From contig SUXS01000010.1 of assembly GCA_015060865.1 (NCBI GenBank), positions 62,001 to 126,000 of the forward strand: a stretch of DNA of 64,000 nucleotides, in the 5' to 3' direction. Origin of the DNA: Bacteroidales bacterium (lineage in GTDB: Bacteria; Bacteroidota; Bacteroidia; Bacteroidales; Bacteroidaceae). This document shows positions 7,482 to 28,242 of this stretch, piece by piece (the stretch's first letter is position 1; each line of letters begins with the position of its first letter). A program made the position numbers and the translations under genes. Under the pieces are notes generated by a model. It had not been told where the DNA came from and did not search any database. It was given only the letters and a program-made list of their open reading frames with translations.

Positions 7482-7555
7482 GGGCTTTTAGCTCAGTTGG
7501 TTAGAGCAACAGACTCATAATCTGGAGGTCCTAGGTTCAAGCCCTAGATGGCCCA
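7482..7555 (+). tRNA. tRNA with CAT anticodon (Met or Ile2); integration target
   Basis: GGGCTTTTAGCTCAGTTGGTTAGAGCAACAGACTCATAATCTGGAGGTCCTAGGTTCAAGCCCTAGATGGCCCA; D-stem GCTC/GAGC, anticodon stem CAGA/TCTG, T-loop GGTTCAAGCC. Confidence 0.93.
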
Positions 7556-7556
7556 C
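7512..7556 (+). repeat. attL core, direct repeat copy 1
   Basis: GACTCATAATCTGGAGGTCCTAGGTTCAAGCCCTAGATGGCCCAC, identical to 18208-18252. Confidence 0.95.
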
Positions 7557-7683
7557 GACAAAGAAGAGAAGCTAAGCATTTAGAACTAAAGTGTTTAGCT
7601 TCTTTCTTTTTTTGCCTGTTACCGAGTGTGCCACTGCCTGTAGCGCTGAAAATTCTGTAGTTTTAAGCTTTTTTCGCATGATG

Positions 7684-7707
7684 TGTTGACTAATTGTTGA
7701 CTAATTT
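7684..7707 (+). repeat. Tandem arm-type repeat, left end (TGTTGACTAATTGTTGACTAATTT)
   Basis: 23/24 match to 18082-18105; internally two GTTGACTAAT half-sites spaced 11 bp. Confidence 0.85.
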
Positions 7708-7720
7708 TATTGCGCATAAA

Positions 7721-8989
7721 ATGCTGACAATCAGAGCAGAAATTAAGAAAAGCGAACAAAGAAGTGACAAAACTTACAATGTAAAGCTGAGATTTACACT
7801 TGACAGGAAGGTCAAGAGGGTTTCTACGAGTTTATTTGTTACAGCTAAGGACTTGACCAAAGACTTAAAAATTAAGCCAAGCTCCCCTATTAAAAAAGAA
7901 GTAGATGCACTAGTGCGTGTCTATCAAGAGAGGTGTGCAAAGCTACAAATAGAACTAAACGACTACACCGTTGATGATATTGTAGACATGTTAAATGGCG
8001 AGCAAGCTAAATCACAGAAGATTGATTTCATCAAGTTTTGTCGTGAGTGGATAGCTAATGCTGAGATAAAGGGTGCTCCAAACTACACGACTGCCGTTAA
8101 TGCTTTAGTACGTTTCGTAGGTAAAGACGAGTTGGATGTTAAGTTGATTACAACTGAGTTCTTGGAACGCTTCAAGGAGTTTCTAAGTAAGGAACGTGAA
8201 GAGCGTGCAAGGAAACTCGCATTGCAAGGAAAGCGATTACCATCAAACCGTGCGCAGTCCCTCTACTTAATGAGCATAAAGAAGTTGTTTAAGGAGGCCA
8301 AGAAGTTCTACAACAAGAAATACAAGAACACGATACTGATTTCTCACTCTCCGTTTGAAGACCTTACTATTCCCAGACAAGAAGCTACACGCAAGAGGGC
8401 TATATCCGCGGAATTGATACGTGAAATTTGGAAACTCCCCTACAAGAATATAAAGAAAGGTTACAGGAATACCTGCTTGTTTGATATGGCCAAAGATTGT
8501 TTCATCCTCTCGTTTGGTCTTATTGGAATGAACTCTGCTGATTTATATTATGCCACTGATTACCAAGATGGGATTATCACTTACTACAGAACAAAGACCA
8601 AGGCACGTAGATTGGATAAGGGTAAAATGCAGGTGGTAGTTCCTAAGATGTTGCTTCCTCTGGTAGAGAAGTACAGAGACCAAACAGGTGAACGCATATT
8701 TAACTTCTATCATTTATATGCCAATGAGAAAGCTTTGAGCAAGGCTCTCAATCGTGGGTTGAAGGAGATAGGTGCATTGCTCAATATAGATGATTTGGAA
8801 TACTACGCCGCGCGTCACTCATGGGCGACTATAGCAGTCAACAAAGTGGGAATAGATAAGTACACAGTACATGCAGCATTGAACCACTTGGATGAATCAA
8901 TGAAGGTTACAGACATTTACATAGAGCGCGACTTTGCTATAGAAAACAGGGCGAATGCCAAGGTTATGGAGTACGTTTTTAATCGTTGA
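7721..8989 (+). CDS. int: Tyrosine-type site-specific integrase (Bacteroidetes conjugative-transposon type)
   Basis: SAM-like N-terminal and catalytic domain; YYAARHSWATIA and TDIYIERDF boxes; box I reads FGLIGMNSADL without canonical Arg. Track start 7694 is TTG; ATG 7721 preferred. Confidence 0.93.
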   Translation: MLTIRAEIKKSEQRSDKTYNVKLRFTLDRKVKRVSTSLFVTAKDLTKDLKIKPSSPIKKEVDALVRVYQERCAKLQIELNDYTVDDIVDMLNGEQAKSQKIDFIKFCREWIANAEIKGAPNYTTAVNALVRFVGKDELDVKLITTEFLERFKEFLSKEREERARKLALQGKRLPSNRAQSLYLMSIKKLFKEAKKFYNKKYKNTILISHSPFEDLTIPRQEATRKRAISAELIREIWKLPYKNIKKGYRNTCLFDMAKDCFILSFGLIGMNSADLYYATDYQDGIITYYRTKTKARRLDKGKMQVVVPKMLLPLVEKYRDQTGERIFNFYHLYANEKALSKALNRGLKEIGALLNIDDLEYYAARHSWATIAVNKVGIDKYTVHAALNHLDESMKVTDIYIERDFAIENRANAKVMEYVFNR

Positions 8990-9081
8990 CCACAGCATTT
9001 AATCCCATTGATTATAACAGCCATTAACAACGAGTGGATTGAAATTTTCGCTATCTTTGTAGCATATTATATGATACGACA

Positions 9082-9975
9082 ATGAAATCATACGCACGAT
9101 ACGTCAGAAAAAATGAGGATGGCGAACTTGGAATTTACCCATTTGAATATTTGGAGTACTACGAAGCCAATCTACATCCATACCATGATTTTCCTCTTGA
9201 AGATGGTAATAGAAGAGTTTACGATGGCATAACAGTTGAGGAGTTCTATTCACGGCATGGAGAAGGATTCTGGGGATTGCTGCAACCATTTCTGAGGGAC
9301 GAACGATTGATGCAGTTACAGAGTGAACTTGAAGAGGAGGGCAAGGAGGTTTGCATGTTAAACATGTGCATCTTGGCACAGTTTCTTGTTGAGAAAGGGA
9401 AATCGCGCTACATGTTTCTGTTGAAGCCAAACCTATCAGATACCTTGTCGGCCTTAAAGGATGTTTCAAGAATCACTTTTACCAATAAAGACGGTTCGAC
9501 TGTAGAGAGTTCATCTTCCAAATTGATAGAAAAGGTAATGGAAGTTCTGGAAAAAGAAAAGGAATCTGATGCAATGTACTGTGAGGTGGAAAAAGTTGTA
9601 ACATGGGATAAGGTCTCAAACAATTCAATCATGCAGAGTTGCTTCGTTTATGACTTGACCATGTTTCTTAACAGATACTTTCCTGTCAAGCGCAAGAAGG
9701 ATGCACTTGTTTCCACCAAGGAAGTGGAGCTGATACTTTACCTTATGAAGCTTTTTGAATTGTCGGCAGTTGAGTTGACCAACAAGCGTTATTGGCAACT
9801 GATGAAGACAAACGAAGAGATAAATACGCAATTGCCCGGCTACCTTAAGCATGAAGAAACGTTGATACCTCTATATTTTATACCTTATTCTATATGGAGT
9901 AAAGGTAAAATAGATTGGAGGGGGAAAGACTTGCCAATATCCAACATAGAGGTAGGAATGGTTGTTCGGCTGTAA
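9082..9975 (+). CDS. Hypothetical protein of the integrated element
   Basis: 297-aa ORF preceded by TATCTTTG promoter motif near 9053; no family recognised. Confidence 0.75.
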   Translation: MKSYARYVRKNEDGELGIYPFEYLEYYEANLHPYHDFPLEDGNRRVYDGITVEEFYSRHGEGFWGLLQPFLRDERLMQLQSELEEEGKEVCMLNMCILAQFLVEKGKSRYMFLLKPNLSDTLSALKDVSRITFTNKDGSTVESSSSKLIEKVMEVLEKEKESDAMYCEVEKVVTWDKVSNNSIMQSCFVYDLTMFLNRYFPVKRKKDALVSTKEVELILYLMKLFELSAVELTNKRYWQLMKTNEEINTQLPGYLKHEETLIPLYFIPYSIWSKGKIDWRGKDLPISNIEVGMVVRL

Positions 9976-10189
9976 TATAACACGCTGATTTTCTTTTTAA
10001 TGCTTACTTTTGCCTATGTGCAACGGTAAGCATTTTTTCTTTCAAAATGGTTAATTTTCAAGGGGTGGCTATAACTAACTTTTTCTTCTTTCTTGCTTAT
10101 ATGGCTTCTTTTTACCTTTGTGCTCGGAAAGTAAATAACGGGCGTGCCAGATGCCATAATAAATCCGCAGGGCAGCGGTGTAATGAAAT

Positions 10190-11089
10190 ATGATGGAACA
10201 TCATAATGATATTGAGACAAGAAAGGCAGTACCTGCTACTGCAAGTGTTAACCCTGTAATTAAAGCAAAGATGAAAGTAACTACAATTGAAGCCCTCCAA
10301 GCTGAGGGTAAACAAATCGTCTTCTTGGCATTCAATCGCGATGTCACAGACAAGACACCCCATGTAAAGAAACTCGCCAAGTCTATCAAAGGTGAAGGAC
10401 TTCACACCCCATTACATTTAGTTCCTGCCACAACAGCCATCAATGAGGGCGTAATGCTGCTTGACGAGAACGGTAGCGTTGTAACTGATGGCACAGACAA
10501 ATTTGCCTTGGTAGACGGTAACAATAAGTACAGAGCAATCCAAGTACTTAGAGCTACCCAAGAGCCTGGCATGGCAGCTGCTCCCATCAACTGCATCATT
10601 GATGAGGAGGCCAAGGAGATTCAGAAAATGGTAATGACCATAAATAATGTGGTGAAGCCGTGGAGTAACGCAGATGCCATCAAGGCAGCTTCCAGAACAA
10701 AGAATGATGAGGTCGCAGACTTCATTGCTGAAAAGGTAAAAGAAGGATTCTCCTTCTCCACTCTGTCGCTAATCTTGACAGGCTACAACAATAAGATTAC
10801 AAAGAGCATTGTAATGAACTTTATTGCCGACACAGGCGAGCTGCCCGATTGTGACCTTGCTATAGCTAAGAAGAAGTTGACCGCCATGAAAGAGGCTGGT
10901 TTCTCTGACAAGTTCATCAAGAACCGTTATCTCATAGAGACCATCAACGGCTTGGTCTTCCAAGGCCATAATTTGGATAATGTCTTGGCCGCACTCAAGA
11001 CATACACTGACGATGAAGTGCAATTTGCACAAGACCGCAGGAGTTTGGCCTTGTTGAAAACGAAGGTGGAGGAAATAGAAGCCGCCTAA
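10190..11089 (+). CDS. ParB/sulfiredoxin-like domain protein of the element
   Basis: FNRDVTDKTPHVKKLAKSIKGEGLHTPLHLV...LVDGNNKYRAIQVL ParB-like core; TACCTTTG promoter motif upstream. Confidence 0.75.
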   Translation: MMEHHNDIETRKAVPATASVNPVIKAKMKVTTIEALQAEGKQIVFLAFNRDVTDKTPHVKKLAKSIKGEGLHTPLHLVPATTAINEGVMLLDENGSVVTDGTDKFALVDGNNKYRAIQVLRATQEPGMAAAPINCIIDEEAKEIQKMVMTINNVVKPWSNADAIKAASRTKNDEVADFIAEKVKEGFSFSTLSLILTGYNNKITKSIVMNFIADTGELPDCDLAIAKKKLTAMKEAGFSDKFIKNRYLIETINGLVFQGHNLDNVLAALKTYTDDEVQFAQDRRSLALLKTKVEEIEAA

Positions 11090-11116
11090 AACAACTAATC
11101 AGCGGTTACTTCCAGA

Positions 11117-11150
11117 AAGTCTGTTGCCAGAACGGCAGCAGACTTTTTTT
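11117..11150 (+). terminator. Intrinsic terminator
   Basis: AAGTCTGTTGCC-agaac-GGCAGCAGACTTTTTTT. Confidence 0.85.
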
Positions 11151-11543
11151 GTGGGTACACCTATTATCTATTATAGTTTCCTCCTTGTCTCAATAATCAT
11201 ATTTTTTGACCTAACATCATATTATTACCTCCTACTAAAAATCGCACCCCATTAGCTATTACACTTCCAAATACATCCATATCCTCCAAATCCCCCATCT
11301 CCTGTTTAGCTAAAATCAAAGTTAGGTACTTATGTAAAGTCCCCCCTCCCAATGTTGAGAGTGCCCCACTGGGCAGACATGCCCTTTCATCCGCCCCACA
11401 AAAAAACTAGTAAAAAGCATTCTTTTAAAAAGTAGCGATTATAGGCGTAGTAGGTAATTGAGAGAATATAGAAACTAGTAAAATTTATAAGGGCTAGTTC
11501 TATCCATCAATTCAATCAATAACCATTTAATTCATTTACCATT

Positions 11544-12560
11544 ATGAGAAATTTAAGCATTGTGCCCACAGTGGCAAGAACTCGTTTCAATGACTACGCA
11601 GAAGATGCTGTAATCGTAACAGAAGAAGTAAGAACCGCTCCAAGCAAGCAACTGCACTTCATTGAGGCCAACACAACGGAAGTGACCCTGCAGCACCTTC
11701 GCGATGATTGCGTTACTCCTGTCTTTGCCAAGGACAACGAGCTAACCATCAACCACGCTCAGTTTGTAGAGGCCATCCAAGAGGCAGCGCGTGACTTCTT
11801 TAGAGGCGAAATCGTTGAGGAGGCAGACATCCGTGTCTCCCACATCATCAAGGGACGCATCCCAGAGGCGCTTCACAAGAAGACCAGCGAGCTGTTGGAG
11901 AGTGACAAGACGCAGTACTACGAGCGTTGCGCGTTCAGCATTGACATTCCATCCATCTACGAGGTGGTGGACGGTTGCAGGCTCAATCTCTCCATCGTAG
12001 GAGTACGTGCATACAACCACGAAAACCTCTACACGAAGAAGACTCCAGAGTGGTTCCGCTTGGCTATTGGCTTCAAGAACCAAGTGTGCTGCAATATGTG
12101 CATCTTTACGGATGGCTACAAGGACTGCTTGCGAGTGAGTAGCGTGCATGAGCTATATCGTTCTGCATTGGAGCTATTCAACAACTTCAACCCTGCAAAG
12201 CAACTCCACCTGTTGCAGAACCTTGGCACAACTACCCTCACAGAACACCAATTCTGTCAGATATTGGGCAGGATGAGACTTTATCAAGCATTGCCAAGCA
12301 GTCAGCAGAAGCGCATCCCAAGAATGTTGCTTACAGATACGCAAGTCAACGCAGTAAGCAAGGCCTACGTCACTGACCCCAACTTTGGTGCGTTGGATGC
12401 TACGCTCACCATGTGGCAGTTCTATAACCTGCTTACAGGGGCGAACAAGAGTAGCTACATTGACAGCTTCCTTGACCGCGCCTTGAACGCTACGGAGATT
12501 GCCGTGGGCATCAAAGAAGCATTGCACGGTGACGAAAGATACAAGTGGTTTATTGATTAA
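11544..12560 (+). CDS. DUF3871-family protein
   Basis: NLSIVGVRAYNHENLYTKKTPEWFRLAIGFKNQVCCNMCIFTDGYKDCLRVSS...LTGANKSSYIDSFLDR pattern typical of DUF3871. Confidence 0.8.
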   Translation: MRNLSIVPTVARTRFNDYAEDAVIVTEEVRTAPSKQLHFIEANTTEVTLQHLRDDCVTPVFAKDNELTINHAQFVEAIQEAARDFFRGEIVEEADIRVSHIIKGRIPEALHKKTSELLESDKTQYYERCAFSIDIPSIYEVVDGCRLNLSIVGVRAYNHENLYTKKTPEWFRLAIGFKNQVCCNMCIFTDGYKDCLRVSSVHELYRSALELFNNFNPAKQLHLLQNLGTTTLTEHQFCQILGRMRLYQALPSSQQKRIPRMLLTDTQVNAVSKAYVTDPNFGALDATLTMWQFYNLLTGANKSSYIDSFLDRALNATEIAVGIKEALHGDERYKWFID

Positions 12561-12582
12561 ACAGGCTTGTTGATTGGAGAGT

Positions 12583-12619
12583 GAGGGCATCCCATTACGG
12601 TGGGGTGTCCTCTTTTTTA
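12583..12619 (+). terminator. Intrinsic terminator
   Basis: GAGGGCATCCC-attacggt-GGGGTGTCCTCTTTTTT. Confidence 0.75.
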
Positions 12620-12647
12620 TTTAATAACTATACAGATACAGATAATA

Positions 12648-13096
12648 TGACAAACAACATCGTTTCAGAGGTGGAAATCTCATACAAGAACAGAGTACCA
12701 TACAGCCAAAGGCAGAAGATAACAACATCACATAGTGCTTATGAAGTCTTAACGCAGTTGTTCCCTGCTGATACCATTGACTACAGAGAAACATTCATCG
12801 TTCTCTATCTGAACAGGGCAAGCCAAGTGTTAGGCTACTCTATCGTTTCACAGGGAGGAACAGCAAGCACCGTAGTTGACACAAAGATGGTGATTCAAAC
12901 AGCTCTACTTGCTAATGCTTCATGCATCCTTTTGGCGCACAACCACCCAAGCGGCAATTTGCGGCCAAGTCAAGAGGATAACAGGCTAACAGATAGAATC
13001 AGAGAGGCAGCAAAGCTCTTTGATATAGCTGTGCTTGACCATATCATCATTACCAATGAGAGTTTTTATAGTTTTTCAGATAACGGAGATTTTTAA
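12648..13096 (+). CDS. RadC-like JAB/MPN domain protein
   Basis: LLAHNHPSGNLRPSQEDNRLTDRIREAAKLFDIAVLDHIIIT; ATG at 12648 preferred over track start. Confidence 0.9.
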
Positions 13097-13101
13097 TGAC
13101 T

Positions 13102-13278
13102 ATGGAAAAGAACGTGACAATGGAAATTATTGGCAACTTTGCCAAGACCGTACATGAGACCCATGAGGTGATTGTGAGAGAGTGTGACTACTGTGGTAAG
13201 CCTATGACCGCAAGTGAAGCAAACGACTACGGCACATTATGCGAAAGGTGCTATATGCGCGAATACTATAATGAGTAA
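13102..13278 (+). CDS. Small CxxC...CxxC zinc-ribbon-like protein
   Basis: ECDYCGKPMTASEANDYGTLCERCYMREYYNE. Confidence 0.6.
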   Translation: MEKNVTMEIIGNFAKTVHETHEVIVRECDYCGKPMTASEANDYGTLCERCYMREYYNE

Positions 13279-13281
13279 GCT

Positions 13282-13479
13282 ATGGAATACGTTGTTTTGC
13301 TTGATTACTCAGATGGTGAGATAATCAAAATCAGACTATCTGAACAAGAAACCATCCTTGCAGATGAAGCAGAGGATTACGAAGAGTTCTTGCGAACATT
13401 GGAAGAGAAGTACGATTTCAGATTGGATAACTGTTGTTGGATGAGCACAACCAACTTGAAAGAACGAAGCCATCTTTAA
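13282..13479 (+). CDS. Small hypothetical protein of the element
   Basis: 65-aa ORF 3 bp downstream of the preceding gene, same strand. Confidence 0.55.
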   Translation: MEYVVLLDYSDGEIIKIRLSEQETILADEAEDYEEFLRTLEEKYDFRLDNCCWMSTTNLKERSHL

Positions 13480-13587
13480 TGTTCACTTTCATTATTAGTG
13501 AATGTTTCTCAGGGAATCAATCTATTATAAATTGAAGCTCAAAAGGAACATTCACTTTTATTCATTAACTAATAAAACAGAACATTT

Positions 13588-14175
13588 ATGTCACTCAAAT
13601 ACACAAAGACAACCGCAGATTATCTGCAATGGGACGAGGCGATGAATCTCATTCGTAAGTTAGCTAAAGATGGTAATTACAAAATGTCCCTTCTTATAGC
13701 ATTGGGATGTTTTACAGGATTACGAATCTCTGATATTCTTGCATTACGATGGAAGCAAATCCTCCACGTTTCAGAGTTTACCATTACTGAGAAAAAGACA
13801 GGAAAGCAGCGTACACTACGATTGAATCCACAACTGCAAAGGCATATCGCGGAATGTTACGAGCAGATTCAACCAATAGGAACGAGTGCGCCAATCTTGG
13901 TAAGTCAGAAGGGCACAATCTTCACCATTCAGAGGATAAACGTAATGCTCAAAGAGATTAAGAAGAAATATCGCTTACACGTGGGTAATTTCTCTTGTCA
14001 CTCTCTACGCAAGACCTTTGGCAGGCAGGTTTACACGATGAGCAGTGATAGTGCAGAACTCGCATTAGTTAAGTTGATGGAACTCTTCAATCATAGTAGC
14101 ATAGCTATTACTAAACGCTATCTTGGATTGAGACAAGAGGAGATATTGGAGACTTACGATGTGCTGAGTTTCTAA
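13588..14175 (+). CDS. Short tyrosine recombinase (catalytic domain only)
   Basis: FTGLRISDILALRWKQI, CHSLRKTFGRQ, LFNHSSIAITKRYLGL: complete RHRHY-type signature in 195 aa. Confidence 0.88.
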   Translation: MSLKYTKTTADYLQWDEAMNLIRKLAKDGNYKMSLLIALGCFTGLRISDILALRWKQILHVSEFTITEKKTGKQRTLRLNPQLQRHIAECYEQIQPIGTSAPILVSQKGTIFTIQRINVMLKEIKKKYRLHVGNFSCHSLRKTFGRQVYTMSSDSAELALVKLMELFNHSSIAITKRYLGLRQEEILETYDVLSF

Positions 14176-14375
14176 AGGTAGGAGAGGTGACATTTTTTGA
14201 GGAGGAATGTTTTTATAGTCCCTGTTCAAATTTTGTCGCCTACCAACCTTTTTGACGATTTTTGTTCCAAAAATTAAAGAAAAGGTAGATTGAAACTAGT
14301 ACGGTGATATGGATTACAGATTTTGAGCATATTTATCCATCATGGCCTGCGGATATTTAAAAACTTTTACTACTT

Positions 14376-14383
14376 TTGCATCT
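14376..14383 (+). promoter_or_regulatory. Bacteroidetes-type -7 element (TAnnTTTG) upstream of the LRR gene
   Basis: aaaaacttttacTACTTTTGcatc; coordinates approximate. Confidence 0.5.
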
Positions 14384-14521
14384 ATACCTCCGTAGTGACT
14401 CCCTACATACTTCCGGTTGGCAACAAGACAATACGGGAAATTCCACTATAAGGTAAAGACAACAGGTTCCCACAACCTATTTTCTTTCATAGAGGATTTA
14501 TAAAGACAAAACAATAAAAAA

Positions 14522-16228
14522 ATGGGAAAATTCAACTTTAGACAGATGTTGGTAGCAGTAGCAACACTCTTGTGCAGCATGACAGCAAATGCTTATGACT
14601 TTGAAGTCAATGGTTTTTATTACAACATTATTTCAACAGCAGATTTAACCGCAGAATTTACCAGCCCTACCGGAAACACATACTCCGGCAATGTAATAAT
14701 ACCATCTAATGTAACATATAAAGGAAGGACATTCACAGTCGTTTCAATAAGTAGAGCCTTTGCTGATTGCAACAATATTACCTCTGTAACTATACCAAAC
14801 TCTGTAACAAACATTGGCGATTTAGCTTTCGCTAATTGCAATAGTTTAACCTCTATAACCATACCTAATTCTGTAACAAACATTGGGAATCATGCTTTTT
14901 GCGAATGCTACAACTTAGCTTCTATAACTATTCCAGGTTCTGTCACAAACATTGGAGATTGCGCTTTTCAACGTTGTGAGAGTTTAACTTCTATAACTAT
15001 CCCTAATTCCGTTGTAAGCATTGGAGGTCTGGCTTTTCAACATTGTGAAAGTTTGACATCTATAACCATTCCTAATTCTGTCACAAACATGGGCAGTTAT
15101 GCTTTTCAGCGTTGTTTATCTCTGGTTTCTGCTACTATTAGCAATTCTATTGGGCGCATTGAAGAGGGTACTTTTTACTGCTGTGAAAGTTTAACATCTA
15201 TAACTATTCCTAATTCCGCCTGGCATATTGGGGCTTATGCATTCTATGGGTGCACAAATTTGAAGGACCTTACATTTGGTCAAAAAATAGCAGTAATTGA
15301 GGAGTCTGCTTTCAAAGAATGCCCTTCTCTCACAACAGTTAATTCAATAAGAAAGACTTTTTATGGGGAGGCCATGAGTTTTTCTTCAGAAGCCTTTGAT
15401 ATTAAAACATATACAGAAGCGACACTACGCATACCTAAAGGGTCTTTAGCCGAATATCAATCTTTGCCATGTTGGAAAGAATTCTGGGATATTGTAGAGG
15501 TTGATGATTTTGAAGATAATGGAGTTATTACTAACTACTATGTAAATGCACGTTATGATTTCAATCAAGGTTCTGTGACCATAAATGGAGTGTCAGGAAC
15601 AAATGCGACAATAAAAGCGAATGAAAAAATTGAATTTGAGATCATCCCATTTGCAGGTTACGAAATTGACAAGATAGATTTGAACGGTATAGATATAACC
15701 GCTGATATCATTAATGGGAAATACACCATTGCAAGTGCAAATGAAGACATTACTCTTGAAGTTACTTTCAAGATACAAACATTCGCTTTAACGCTGAAAT
15801 GCTGCGAAGTTGGTTCATTTGAGATGAGAATAAAATATGGCGAAACAGCAACATGCAAGATTAATCCAAGTGCAAACTGGACAATCAGTTCAGTGACATT
15901 CAATGGAAGAGATGTTACTGGCGAACTCACGAATAATGTTTTCACAACCCCTGCTATCACTTGTGATTCAGAGCTTAATGTGGTGTTTGCAGATATTAAC
16001 ACATCTGTTTACATGAGCAACAGCACCAGAAATGTCATCGTTTCCGCTTCACGACAAACAATCCTCATTAAAGGTCTTGAAGAGAACACTTTAGTAGAAG
16101 TGTTCAATACAAATGGTAACCTTTATTATTCTACAGTAACAAATGATGACGAGCTGAACGTCAGCGCAACTGAGGGTGGTGTTTATGTTATAAAAGTCGG
16201 TGAAAGAACTTTTAAAGTAGTCTTGTAA
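14522..16228 (+). CDS. Secreted BspA-like leucine-rich-repeat (LRR_5) protein
   Basis: Signal peptide; tandem 23-residue repeats SLTSITIPNSVTNIGxxAFxxC; C-terminal sorting-like tail VEVFNTNGNLYYSTVTNDDELNVSATEGGVYVIKVGERTFKVVL. Confidence 0.9.
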   Translation: MGKFNFRQMLVAVATLLCSMTANAYDFEVNGFYYNIISTADLTAEFTSPTGNTYSGNVIIPSNVTYKGRTFTVVSISRAFADCNNITSVTIPNSVTNIGDLAFANCNSLTSITIPNSVTNIGNHAFCECYNLASITIPGSVTNIGDCAFQRCESLTSITIPNSVVSIGGLAFQHCESLTSITIPNSVTNMGSYAFQRCLSLVSATISNSIGRIEEGTFYCCESLTSITIPNSAWHIGAYAFYGCTNLKDLTFGQKIAVIEESAFKECPSLTTVNSIRKTFYGEAMSFSSEAFDIKTYTEATLRIPKGSLAEYQSLPCWKEFWDIVEVDDFEDNGVITNYYVNARYDFNQGSVTINGVSGTNATIKANEKIEFEIIPFAGYEIDKIDLNGIDITADIINGKYTIASANEDITLEVTFKIQTFALTLKCCEVGSFEMRIKYGETATCKINPSANWTISSVTFNGRDVTGELTNNVFTTPAITCDSELNVVFADINTSVYMSNSTRNVIVSASRQTILIKGLEENTLVEVFNTNGNLYYSTVTNDDELNVSATEGGVYVIKVGERTFKVVL

Positions 16229-16254
16229 CACTAAAAGATATATCCCGACAAACA

Positions 16255-16288
16255 AAAAGCCAACCTACCACAACGGTAAGTTGGCTTT
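16255..16288 (+). terminator. Intrinsic terminator after the LRR gene
   Basis: AAAAGCCAACCTACC-acaac-GGTAAGTTGGCTTT. Confidence 0.8.
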
Positions 16289-16644
16289 CTTCGTTCTAGA
16301 TAAAATATATGAGTGACATTCTTACGAACTTACATGAGGCTGTAGGATAGTTCCCTTAAACATATCAATCTTCATTCATACTTAATCCGTACAATCTCAT
16401 ATACACAATGATACTCATTACAGACAACAACCCCAAGCAAAATAATGATTTTTCTGGGCCGTCGTTTTAATGGCCTCACGGCATTAGTTATTCTACAGCC
16501 AATTGCGCTCCAAGGGCAAATTATGCACGAAATGAGCACATAAGACCCGCTATCAACTTTTTTCGTCATAATTCTTGGCATGTCGAATTTCTATGAATAT
16601 ACTCGTACTATAGGAGGAATACAAGTAAAAACATACGCTCCCTC

Positions 16645-16697
16645 AACTTTCCTATAGTTCCCCCTTTTCTTTCCTGTAGTTCTCCCTTAACTTTCCG
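16645..16697 (+). repeat. 22-bp tandem direct repeats (iteron-like), about 2.4 copies
   Basis: aactttcctatagttccccctt / ttctttcctgtagttctccctt / aactttcc. Confidence 0.7.
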
Positions 16698-16924
16698 CTC
16701 TAATAATACAGTAATACAAATAATACAACAAGCCAGCACTGACCAAATGGCCAGCTCTGGCAATATGACTTTTGATAATATGATTATTTACAAACCTACC
16801 AAACAAATCTTTTAGAATCGTCTGGAAGCTAAACTATATTTTGGCTCAGCAAACTTTCACAGATTGATACGTAAACAACATTCAGATTTTCTCTTTACTA
16901 ATAATCAAACTCCATTTGCTAATA

Positions 16925-17734
16925 ATGAGTACGTTTATACAAATACCCAATAGAATCAACCAGCTTACGAAGAGAAGCAAACTCTATGAGATAATAACTT
17001 ATGCCACCATCAGAAGCCAGATTAAAGACAGTTCCTATACAGCTGCATATCCAGAAATATAGTTGGCAGAGGGGCTTGGAGTAACGGACAGAACAGTCCG
17101 TGCTTATGTAGAAGAGTTAGAACAAGCAAACTTCTTTACTATTACCAAACGCTACGGAATAGGAGAATATGCCCACAATGTCTATCATCTTGATTACTTG
17201 TCAGAAGATTACTTTGTAATAGTGCCAGAGTTTATTACAGAGAATAGCATAACTCCACATTTGAAGGGACTTCTACTGTTAATGAAGACATATTGCGTCA
17301 AAGGAACGAATTACCTACAATTCAGTAGTAAAGAAGCATTGGCCAAACTACTACATATTGGTAAGAACACACTACCAGTCTACTTGCAAGAATTGGAAGA
17401 AAACGGCTTGATAAGATTTATTGATGATACGTTGCATCTACCTTGCCAATACTTCAAACTTTCTATTATTGACGGAATAGATAATAGAATGTACGAAACT
17501 ATATATAAATACTGTTTGAGCAAAGGCAGTGTGCCTCCATACAAGGATGCCGACACCTATGATATTGGGGCGTTTATTACGCATTTTGACACTCCAGATG
17601 AACTGTTCAAAGCCTTGGACACAAGGTGCTCCAAACTGCCCAGAAAAGTCTCATTCGCATATTTTACAGAAGCATTGCTAAACAAGAGAACAGAAACTAG
17701 AGTTAAACCCACATACGAAATAACACATGATTGA
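16925..17734 (+). CDS. Two-winged-helix (Rep-like) DNA-binding protein interrupted by an in-frame TAG at 17060-17062
   Basis: MSTFIQIPNRINQLTKRSKLYEIITYATIRSQIKDSSYTAAYPEI[TAG]LAEGLGVTDRTVRAYVEELEQANFF...; ORF track shows only the part after the TAG (17063-17734). Confidence 0.7.
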
Positions 17735-17936
17735 ACAAGAACTAAACTATATTACAGGCGACCGCCTAACCAACAAAGAACTGAAGGAAATTTTACAACG
17801 GTTATACGACAAACATTAGATACACGAGCGTGCCAAGGCCACCCATATTGCAAGATATGGCTATACATTCAAACGCTGCAAGATACGCATTGATGGAAAA
17901 AGAGTAGACGGATTAGAACTATATCCAACCCTATAA
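17727..17936 (+). CDS. Small element protein interrupted by an in-frame TAG at 17817-17819
   Basis: MIEQELNYITGDRLTNKELKEILQRLYDKH[TAG]IHERAKATHIARYGYTFKRCKIRIDGKRVDGLELYPTL-taa; overlaps upstream stop by 8 bp. Confidence 0.6.
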
Positions 17937-18008
17937 TTCTCTTTTCTGTAGGATTGACAGCACACAAGAAATGCCATCACCACATATTCACCAACACTTA
18001 AATAACTT

Positions 18009-18039
18009 ACGAGAGAGCCTTAAAAACTCTCTCGTTTTG
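18009..18039 (+). terminator. Intrinsic terminator
   Basis: ACGAGAGAG-ccttaaaaa-CTCTCTCGTTTTG. Confidence 0.8.
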
Positions 18040-18081
18040 TTTGTGGTACGGTGGATAATTGTTACCTTTGCATCAAACAAA

Positions 18082-18105
18082 TGTTGACTAATAGTTGACT
18101 AATTT
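18082..18105 (+). repeat. Tandem arm-type repeat, right end (TGTTGACTAATAGTTGACTAATTT)
   Basis: 23/24 match to 7684-7707. Confidence 0.85.
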
Positions 18106-18147
18106 GTTTATGAGAGTTCATTTACATAGTCATCACCCATGCCATAA

Positions 18148-18251
18148 GGGCTTTTGGCTCAGTTGGTTACACACGATGAATCCGCAAGGATTCAGCGTGC
18201 TTGGCACGACTCATAATCTGGAGGTCCTAGGTTCAAGCCCTAGATGGCCCA
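18148..18251 (+). pseudogene. tRNA-like sequence with hairpin insertion at the right end of the element (attR)
   Basis: 5' 22 nt GGGCTTTTGGCTCAGTTGGTTA (21/22 with tRNA at 7482), 38 nt in place of GAGCAACA, then the identical 45-bp 3' part; D-stem and anticodon stem not formable. Confidence 0.85.
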
Positions 18252-18252
18252 C
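18208..18252 (+). repeat. attR core, direct repeat copy 2
   Basis: Identical to 7512-7556. Confidence 0.95.
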
Positions 18253-24772: not shown

Positions 24773-24822
24773 TCCTAATCTCCACGCAAGCCCCCCTCGC
24801 GCCACTCTATTACCTATTATAA

Positions 24823-25182
24823 AAATGGCATACGGGGCCATGCCCGTTGCCTATCTTGTAGGCAGCACCGTGGATGATGGCATTGTTGATGTATGCTTTC
24901 GCCGCGCGAGCGGCTTCGGTAAGCGGGAGCCCCCTGGCCAGTTGGGCTGCAAAAGCGCTTGAGAGGGTACAGCCTGTACCGCGGGAATGTTTTTTGGGGG
25001 GAGATGACTCGCCCAGTGGCATCAGGTCGCTCTTCAGCACGACGATGGCGCTGTCCTCGATGAGCTTGTGCCCCGAGGTGGATAACACCGCCTGCAGCGG
25101 CTTCACGCACTATCCAAGCCATGTCGCGACCACCCGAAAGGGGGCGGTCGGTGACAAAGTAAAGGGAGAGGTCAAAGGGTTT
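24823..25182 (-). pseudogene. Collapsed remnant of a second thiE-thiD fusion
   Basis: Near-identical blocks to the 3' and 5' ends of 26749-28242 joined across deletions; fragments [49 protein letters not shown]. Confidence 0.92.
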
Positions 25183-26748: not shown

Positions 26749-28242
26749 TTAGTAGAAATGGCATACGGGACCATGCCCATTGCCTATCTTGTAGGCAGCA
26801 CCGTGGATGATGGCATTGTTGATGTATGCTTTGGCTGCGCGAGCAGCTTCGGTGAGCGGGAGCCCCTTGGCCAGTTGGGCAGCAAAGGCACTTGAGAGGG
26901 TGCAGCCTGTACCGTGGGTGTTGGGCGTGTCGACGCGGCGGGCACTGAGTTCGGCCACCTCGCCTGTCTCGTAGTTGTAGAAGATGTCGATGAGTTCGTC
27001 GTCCACCAGGTGACCTGCCTTGAGCAATACCGATACCCCATACTGCTGGGCCAGGCGGCGGGCTGCACTGGGCAGGTCGCCCTGCTTCTCGATAGGCTCG
27101 CCAAGCAGAATCTCGGCCTCGGGAATGTTTGGGGTGATAACTCGCGCCAGCGGCATCAGGTCGCTCTTCAGCACGGCAATGGCGCTGTCCTCGATGAGCT
27201 TGTGCCCCGAGGTGGATACCATCACGGGGTCGAGCACCACATCCTTGACACCGTACTTGCGCAACAGACGCGCCACGCTGCGCACCACCTCGGCTGAGTG
27301 GAGCATGCCTATCTTCACGCTGTCGGTGCCGATGTCGCTGAGCACGGCTTCAATCTGCCCTTCGAGGATGTCGATGGAGAGGCCCTCCACGGCATTTACG
27401 CCCAGCGTATTCTGTGCGGTGATGGCGGTGATGGCCGATGTGGCAAAGCATCCGTTGGCCGAGATACTCTTGATATCGGCCTGTATGCCGGCGCCACCGC
27501 CCGAGTCACTGCCGGCGATGGTGAGGACTCTTCTTAATTGAGAATTGACAGTTGACAATTGACAATTCTCGGAGAGCTCTGAGTACTCGGAGTGCTCTGA
27601 ATGCCCATGGCGGTTATTTCTGATAATCCCCGCCAGCTCTGCTGCTGCTTCGCGGGGCGAGGGAGCTGCCACGATGGCCGATACCACGGCTACGCCCTCT
27701 ACGCCGTGGGCGATGACCTCACCCACGGTGTCTCTGTTCATGCCGCCGATGGCCACGCAGCGGTGGCGCGAGCAGCGCATCACCTCGTCTATACCGTCGA
27801 GGCCGAAGGGGGCGAACGTGTCGGTCTTGGTGGGCGTGGCATACACGGGCGATATACCTATATAATCCACGTCGAGGGCATTGGCAGCGATGACCTCATC
27901 CATCGTCTCCACCGAGAGACCGATAATCTTGTCGCTGCCCAGCAGCTTGCGGGCTGTGGCATAGGGCATATCGCTCTGCCCGATGTGTACACCGTCGGCA
28001 TCCACGGCGAGAGCCACGTCTACACGGTCATTGATGATGAGGGGTATGCCGAGGGGAGCCAGGGCGGCTTTCAGCTCGCGGGCCAGTTGGATGAATTCGG
28101 CTGTGGAGCACTCCTTCTCGCGGAGCTGCACCATGGTGACACCGCCTGCAGCGGCTTCACGCACTATCCAAGCCATGTCACGACCACCCGAAAGGGGGCG
28201 GTCGGTGACAAGGTAAAGGGAGAGGTCAAAGGGTTTAACCAT
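26749..28242 (-). CDS. thiED: Bifunctional thiamine-phosphate synthase / HMP(-P) kinase (ThiE-ThiD fusion)
   Basis: Thi[16 protein letters not shown]...VTMVQLREK...[14 protein letters not shown]; Thi[22 protein letters not shown]...[12 protein letters not shown]. Confidence 0.95.
27536..27603. repeat. Compound array in the ThiE-ThiD linker: 5 x 7 nt followed by 4 x 9 nt
   Basis: aattgag aattgac agttgac aattgac aattctc, then ctcggagag ctctgagta ctcggagtg ctctgaatg. Confidence 0.92.

Follow-up and report, generated by a model that had tools for sequence, protein, structure and literature searches.

Gut phages that read TAG as glutamine (code 15) are known, and the recoding is supported by mass spectrometry (PMC9523058). 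Their suppressor tRNAs have been proposed to permit late gene expression (PMC10879173), and a tRNA-CTA is encoded by about half of the predicted code-15 phages (PMC11210395). Phage satellites that possess an integrase, a regulator and replication genes, and that are induced by a helper phage, have also been described (PMC10803314). In a literature search of incomplete coverage, no report was found that joins phage satellites with suppressor tRNAs or describes amber gating of satellites. The window analysed here, a stretch of 64,000 nucleotides from a Bacteroidales genome (GCA_015060865.1, contig SUXS01000010.1, positions 62,001 to 126,000), carries a small integrated element with a group of TAG-bearing genes, and these TAGs look like the glutamine codons of a phage-type module.

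The element (Table 1) is integrated at a tRNA-Met gene, its left att repeat lying inside the intact tRNA (7482-7556), while genes 0, 1 and 2 form its right end, beside the right att site. Comparison of element proteins with Pfam and PHROGs revealed neither a structural phage gene nor a relaxase. A near-identical right end is present in L002 (JAFQLT010000024.1), which comes from a congeneric goat-caecum MAG, with 6 differences in 893 bp (99.3% identity). At the right att junction (18148-18251 in the window, about 789-892 in L002), the first 22 nt of the tRNA-Met recur, followed by extra bases with a hairpin; the junction resembles a tRNA with an insert in the D-arm, scoring 28.2 bits with the Rfam tRNA model, just below its gathering threshold. 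In a related tRNA-Met element (L061; G029 C19), toxin-antitoxin-like and abortive-infection-like genes lie near the right att site and the TAG module is absent, as judged by eye, which suggests that the right-att region is a cargo spot. Outside the element, a short frame at 24810-25106 resembles a stretch of a ThiE/ThiD-like thiamine-synthesis gene (26749-28242) and has the look of a partial duplicate or remnant.

Table 1. Features of the tRNA-Met-integrated element and its TAG-bearing module, in window positions.
Feature	Position	Strand	Remarks
tRNA-Met-integrated element, 10.7 kb	7482-18252	+	45-bp att repeats 7512-7556 and about 18208-18252
Tyrosine integrase of the element, without TAG	7721-8989	+	Starts at ATG, or possibly at TTG 7694
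DUF3871 protein, marker of this element class	11544-12560	+	
RadC-like protein	12647-13096	+	
Second tyrosine recombinase	13588-14175	+	
BspA-type leucine-rich-repeat protein, cargo	14522-16228	+	
Segment spanning gene 0 and the start of gene 1	16778-16949	+	71-74% DNA identity to L093/L094, L060 and L120
Gene 0, small protein (a DNA-binding role is a guess)	16780-16989	+	In-frame TAGs 16813-16815 and 16951-16953
Gene 1, phage-type replication initiator or helicase loader, two winged HTH regions	16925-17734	+	ATG 16925, TGA 17732-17734; in-frame TAG 17060-17062
Gene 2, small accessory protein that follows the initiator in recoded phages	17727-17936	+	ATG 17727, TAA 17934-17936; in-frame TAG 17817-17819

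Genes 1 and 2 overlap by 8 bp, and each frame is open apart from its single TAG, with no frameshift or further stop in either translation, exactly as given in the initial annotation. Both TAGs which that annotation described are real, but the account was incomplete, having overlooked a third TAG-bearing gene, gene 0, directly upstream and overlapping gene 1, which came to light when its translation was seen to align with related loci. Its second TAG falls near the end of the gene and is possibly the real end of gene 0. The PHROG families matched by gene 1 carry the annotations replication initiation protein and DnaD-like helicase loader. When its TAG is read as Gln, the predicted fold contains two winged-HTH regions at low model confidence, and the TAG residue (46) lies within the predicted helix 44-51 of the first of them, in keeping with the earlier proposal that the pieces on either side of this TAG form one HTH. 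Gene 1 was also considered as a member of a defence system and rejected, having only a weak generic HTH match. The L002 copy stops short of the gene 1 TAG and keeps that of gene 2, which is therefore no base-calling error; the copy is no independent evidence of function.

Regarding the host code, no CTA anticodon occurs among the 47 tRNAs found with the Rfam tRNA model in the window's genome, an absence that is strong but not absolute, as the assembly is about 92% complete. With a covariance model derived from the tRNA-CTAs of three phages, the only matches were the two tRNA-Gln genes of the host. Likewise, no suppressor tRNA was found in the window or its element with ARAGORN, Rfam or the phage-tRNA model, as the initial annotation had noted, and no CTA tRNA was found in G000, G072, G106, G316, G377 or G013; the module has in-frame TAGs in otherwise open frames, as recoded phage genes do, and no cognate tRNA-CTA located on its own replicon or genome. 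An odd tRNA-like gene among the 47 (L048, G000 C4:50530-50613) scores 44 bits and has an abnormal anticodon arm and no CTA; it was not called by ARAGORN. A genome-wide change of code was rejected, with no CTA tRNA found and TAG serving as a stop on the chromosome, where 7 of the 40 flanking ORFs of at least 150 aa end in it. Meanwhile, none of the other element genes terminates in TAG, all stopping at TAA or TGA; both observations agree with what had been read from the window initially. Recoding of the whole element was also rejected, since its other genes are without TAG and the other DUF3871 elements had no TAG excess in a mechanical survey that was noisy, judging by its TAA and TGA counts.

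By sequence comparison, the module corresponds in homology and synteny to the replication module found in temperate phages in which TAG is read as glutamine and a CTA-anticodon tRNA is encoded. For the DNA around gene 0, a match was found in G018, which belongs to the window's genus; the matching locus is part of a prophage with in-frame TAGs in terminase, portal, capsid, HNH and other genes, which also contains homologues of gene 0 and gene 1 and a CTA-anticodon tRNA close downstream of its HTH gene. As this one contig passes from chromosomal, standard-code genes with a GC of about 0.5 into the TAG-rich region with a GC of about 0.35, a TAG-recoded temperate phage has lysogenised the window's genus. 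Decay had been argued initially from the missing suppressor tRNA, but that absence does not speak for it, given that this genus is lysogenised by members of the same clade of recoded phages. Three IMG/VR sequences (L093, L094 and L120) share the order gene 0, HTH gene, gene 2 and also carry a tRNA-CTA; L122 has the module, with no tRNA found in the sequenced piece examined. No convincing homologue of the module was found in plasmids or GenBank phages.

In the four recoded phages compared, Gln stands opposite TAG at 49 of 116 positions, against a background of 2.5%, followed by Lys, Glu and Ser with 12 each; TAG is therefore most likely Gln in these phages, and their tRNA-CTA is closest to the host tRNA-Gln. 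At the window's own TAG sites, the homologues have mostly Lys in gene 0, Thr in gene 1 and Gly in gene 2, not Gln, and the gene 0 TAG faces AAG in the phages, one base apart. Thus, comparing homologous residues at each TAG, as the initial annotation advised, answers for Gln in the related phages and at one G072 site, where relatives have CAG, but is by itself no proof of Gln in the window genes, for which this decoding would follow from context. The gene 0 region is 74% identical to the phages in DNA (Table 1), whereas the rest of gene 1 has a protein identity of only about 20%, a mosaic that, judged from sequence, suggests that such elements and phages have recombined. TAG does not occur in the phage HTH genes examined, in contrast to gene 1. 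In L060, L094, L120 and L122, the HTH initiator is without TAG, which is scarce in or missing from most genes beyond it and frequent in the structural genes, a distribution that would suit recoding as a mark of late genes.

Standalone gene 2 was found in 6 of 400 genomes of the family, in three element lineages, always in a module with in-frame TAG and in the same right-end position. The first lineage comprises the window and G013; the second, G072, G106 and G316, from a genus different from that of the window; and the third, G377, from the genus of G072 but at a tRNA-Pro site. Codon 9 of gene 2 and codon 8 of an HNH gene are TAG in all three genomes of the second lineage, while codon 52 of gene 2 is TAG in G072 and CAG in G106 and G316; no phage counterparts of the G072 HTH and HNH genes were found. 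In the G106 element (L077/L079), an extra segment of about 1.3 kb with a 401-aa ORF splits a gene that is intact in G072 (689 aa), and it looks like an insertion sequence. In G377, a helicase frame of about 600 codons with three TAGs precedes gene 2, and it is 56% identical to the helicase of the recoded phage L169, which has a tRNA-CTA. Leaving out the second gene 0 TAG (16951-16953), the in-frame stops across the three lineages are TAG in 9 of 9 cases, with no TAA or TGA; single-base stop-gains would be expected to give TAG in a share of 0.33, so that nine of nine has p ~4e-5 under decay, a value to be read with the ascertainment bias that some frames were found by allowing TAG and that the modules may share ancestry. 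Genome searches reading through any stop likewise showed only TAG in standalone gene 2.

The window and L002 are too alike for signs of selection, and constraint was therefore read from related elements, where the dN/dS of HNH and gene 2 is 0.10-0.21. The HNH gene has a dN/dS of 0.10-0.16 in three pairwise comparisons (G072, G106 and G316), with the TAG at codon 8 kept. Between G072 and G106/G316, gene 2 has a dS of 0.41 and a dN of 0.085 across its TAGs, while dS outside gene 2 is about 0.01-0.13; gene 2, with a dS far above its neighbours, has therefore been exchanged, and the purifying selection on it may have acted in phages, not in elements.

Several explanations can be weighed against these data. 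Plain decay, in which abandoned cargo genes acquired independent nonsense mutations, was one of the two defaults of the initial annotation; it agrees with a genome in which no suppressor tRNA was found and with the single base that separates the gene 0 TAG from the phage AAG. Pseudogenes would show mixed stops, frameshifts and relaxed constraint, whereas the nine counted stops are all TAG, no frameshift is present, dN/dS in the related elements is low and the homologues belong to phages that read TAG as Gln. Since the stops are TAG only, the frames open and the pattern repeated in related elements, decay is improbable. The other default, regulated readthrough, would have a near-cognate host tRNA-Gln produce a low level of full-length protein in the uninfected cell. 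The insertion of Gln at UAG is an established near-cognate event, and TTG and CTG are the anticodons of the host's tRNA-Gln; readthrough would, however, be needed separately in three successive genes and gives no account of why phages equipped with a dedicated tRNA share them, and we consider it slightly less credible still. What stood from that annotation is the option of TAG-to-Gln recoding, as the module is common to phages with tRNA-CTA. Least probable is the use of internal starts past the TAGs, giving shorter working proteins: a TTG codon directly follows the gene 1 TAG, but this TAG lies inside the first HTH, the homologues align from the upstream start, and in the related gene 2 no ATG, GTG or TTG close after the codon 9 TAG is common to the G072 and G106 versions.

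The main rival, and a serious one, is that the module is a silent passenger, acquired by recombination with recoded prophages and stranded with leftover Gln codons, of no benefit and heading for loss. The DNA-level mosaic with phages around gene 0, the exchange of gene 2 between elements, the close likeness of the window and L002, which hides any selection, and the absence of the module from most DUF3871 elements would all fit, and this reading is quite possible, if below even odds. Against it stand the same right-end position in three element lineages, the purifying selection on HNH in three genomes and the lack of TAA, TGA or frameshift in the counted genes.

The explanation that we favour, with a probability of roughly 0.5, is conditional expression, in which the full-length proteins would appear only in cells where a recoded phage provides the tRNA. 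A replication-type module of small protein, initiator and accessory protein would have been shared by exchange with a temperate Bacteroidales phage clade that probably decodes TAG as glutamine via its own tRNA-CUA. In the uninfected cell, each TAG-bearing gene would then yield only a short N-terminal fragment, because the element is without the phage tRNA; once a recoded phage infects or is induced, its tRNA would be made, the UAGs read as Gln and the full-length proteins produced. The element could thereby respond to the phage in a satellite-like manner or interfere with its replication. A wider proposal, tentative and rather doubtful at present, is that Bacteroidales satellites or interference islands keep an amber-held replication module that the suppressor tRNA of a recoded phage switches on, thus sensing the helper.

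Stop-codon recoding is known from phages that bring their own tRNA, whereas here it would reside in chromosomal elements unable to decode it. If the genes are used, the incoming phage tRNA would act as an infection signal, a type of regulation for which no report was found in our search, and the system would offer a direct route to testing what recoding does. Standard annotation takes such TAG-bearing genes for broken. In addition, the finding connects mobile elements with a clade of recoded temperate phages within their own host genus.

Compared with known systems, the module resembles code-15 gut phages in its in-frame TAGs, its homologous replication genes in the same order and its Bacteroidales hosts; unlike them, it is carried by a small integrated element that has neither structural genes nor a suppressor tRNA-CTA, and TAG is confined to the right-end module. 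Like phage satellites (PICI, P4-like, PICMI; PMC10803314), the element is about 11 kb long, with an integrase, a tRNA att site and, as judged from their sequences, phage-type replication genes, and no structural genes were found in it. It differs from them in that neither a known regulator such as AlpA nor a packaging or capsid-remodelling gene was found in the element, nor was a shared packaging site identified, and its helper is putative. Finally, its backbone of integrase, DUF3871 and RadC proteins at a tRNA att site is that of the tRNA-integrated DUF3871/RadC elements of Bacteroidales; among the 19 usable others surveyed no convincing TAG-bearing module was seen, and the window element is set apart from them by carrying one.
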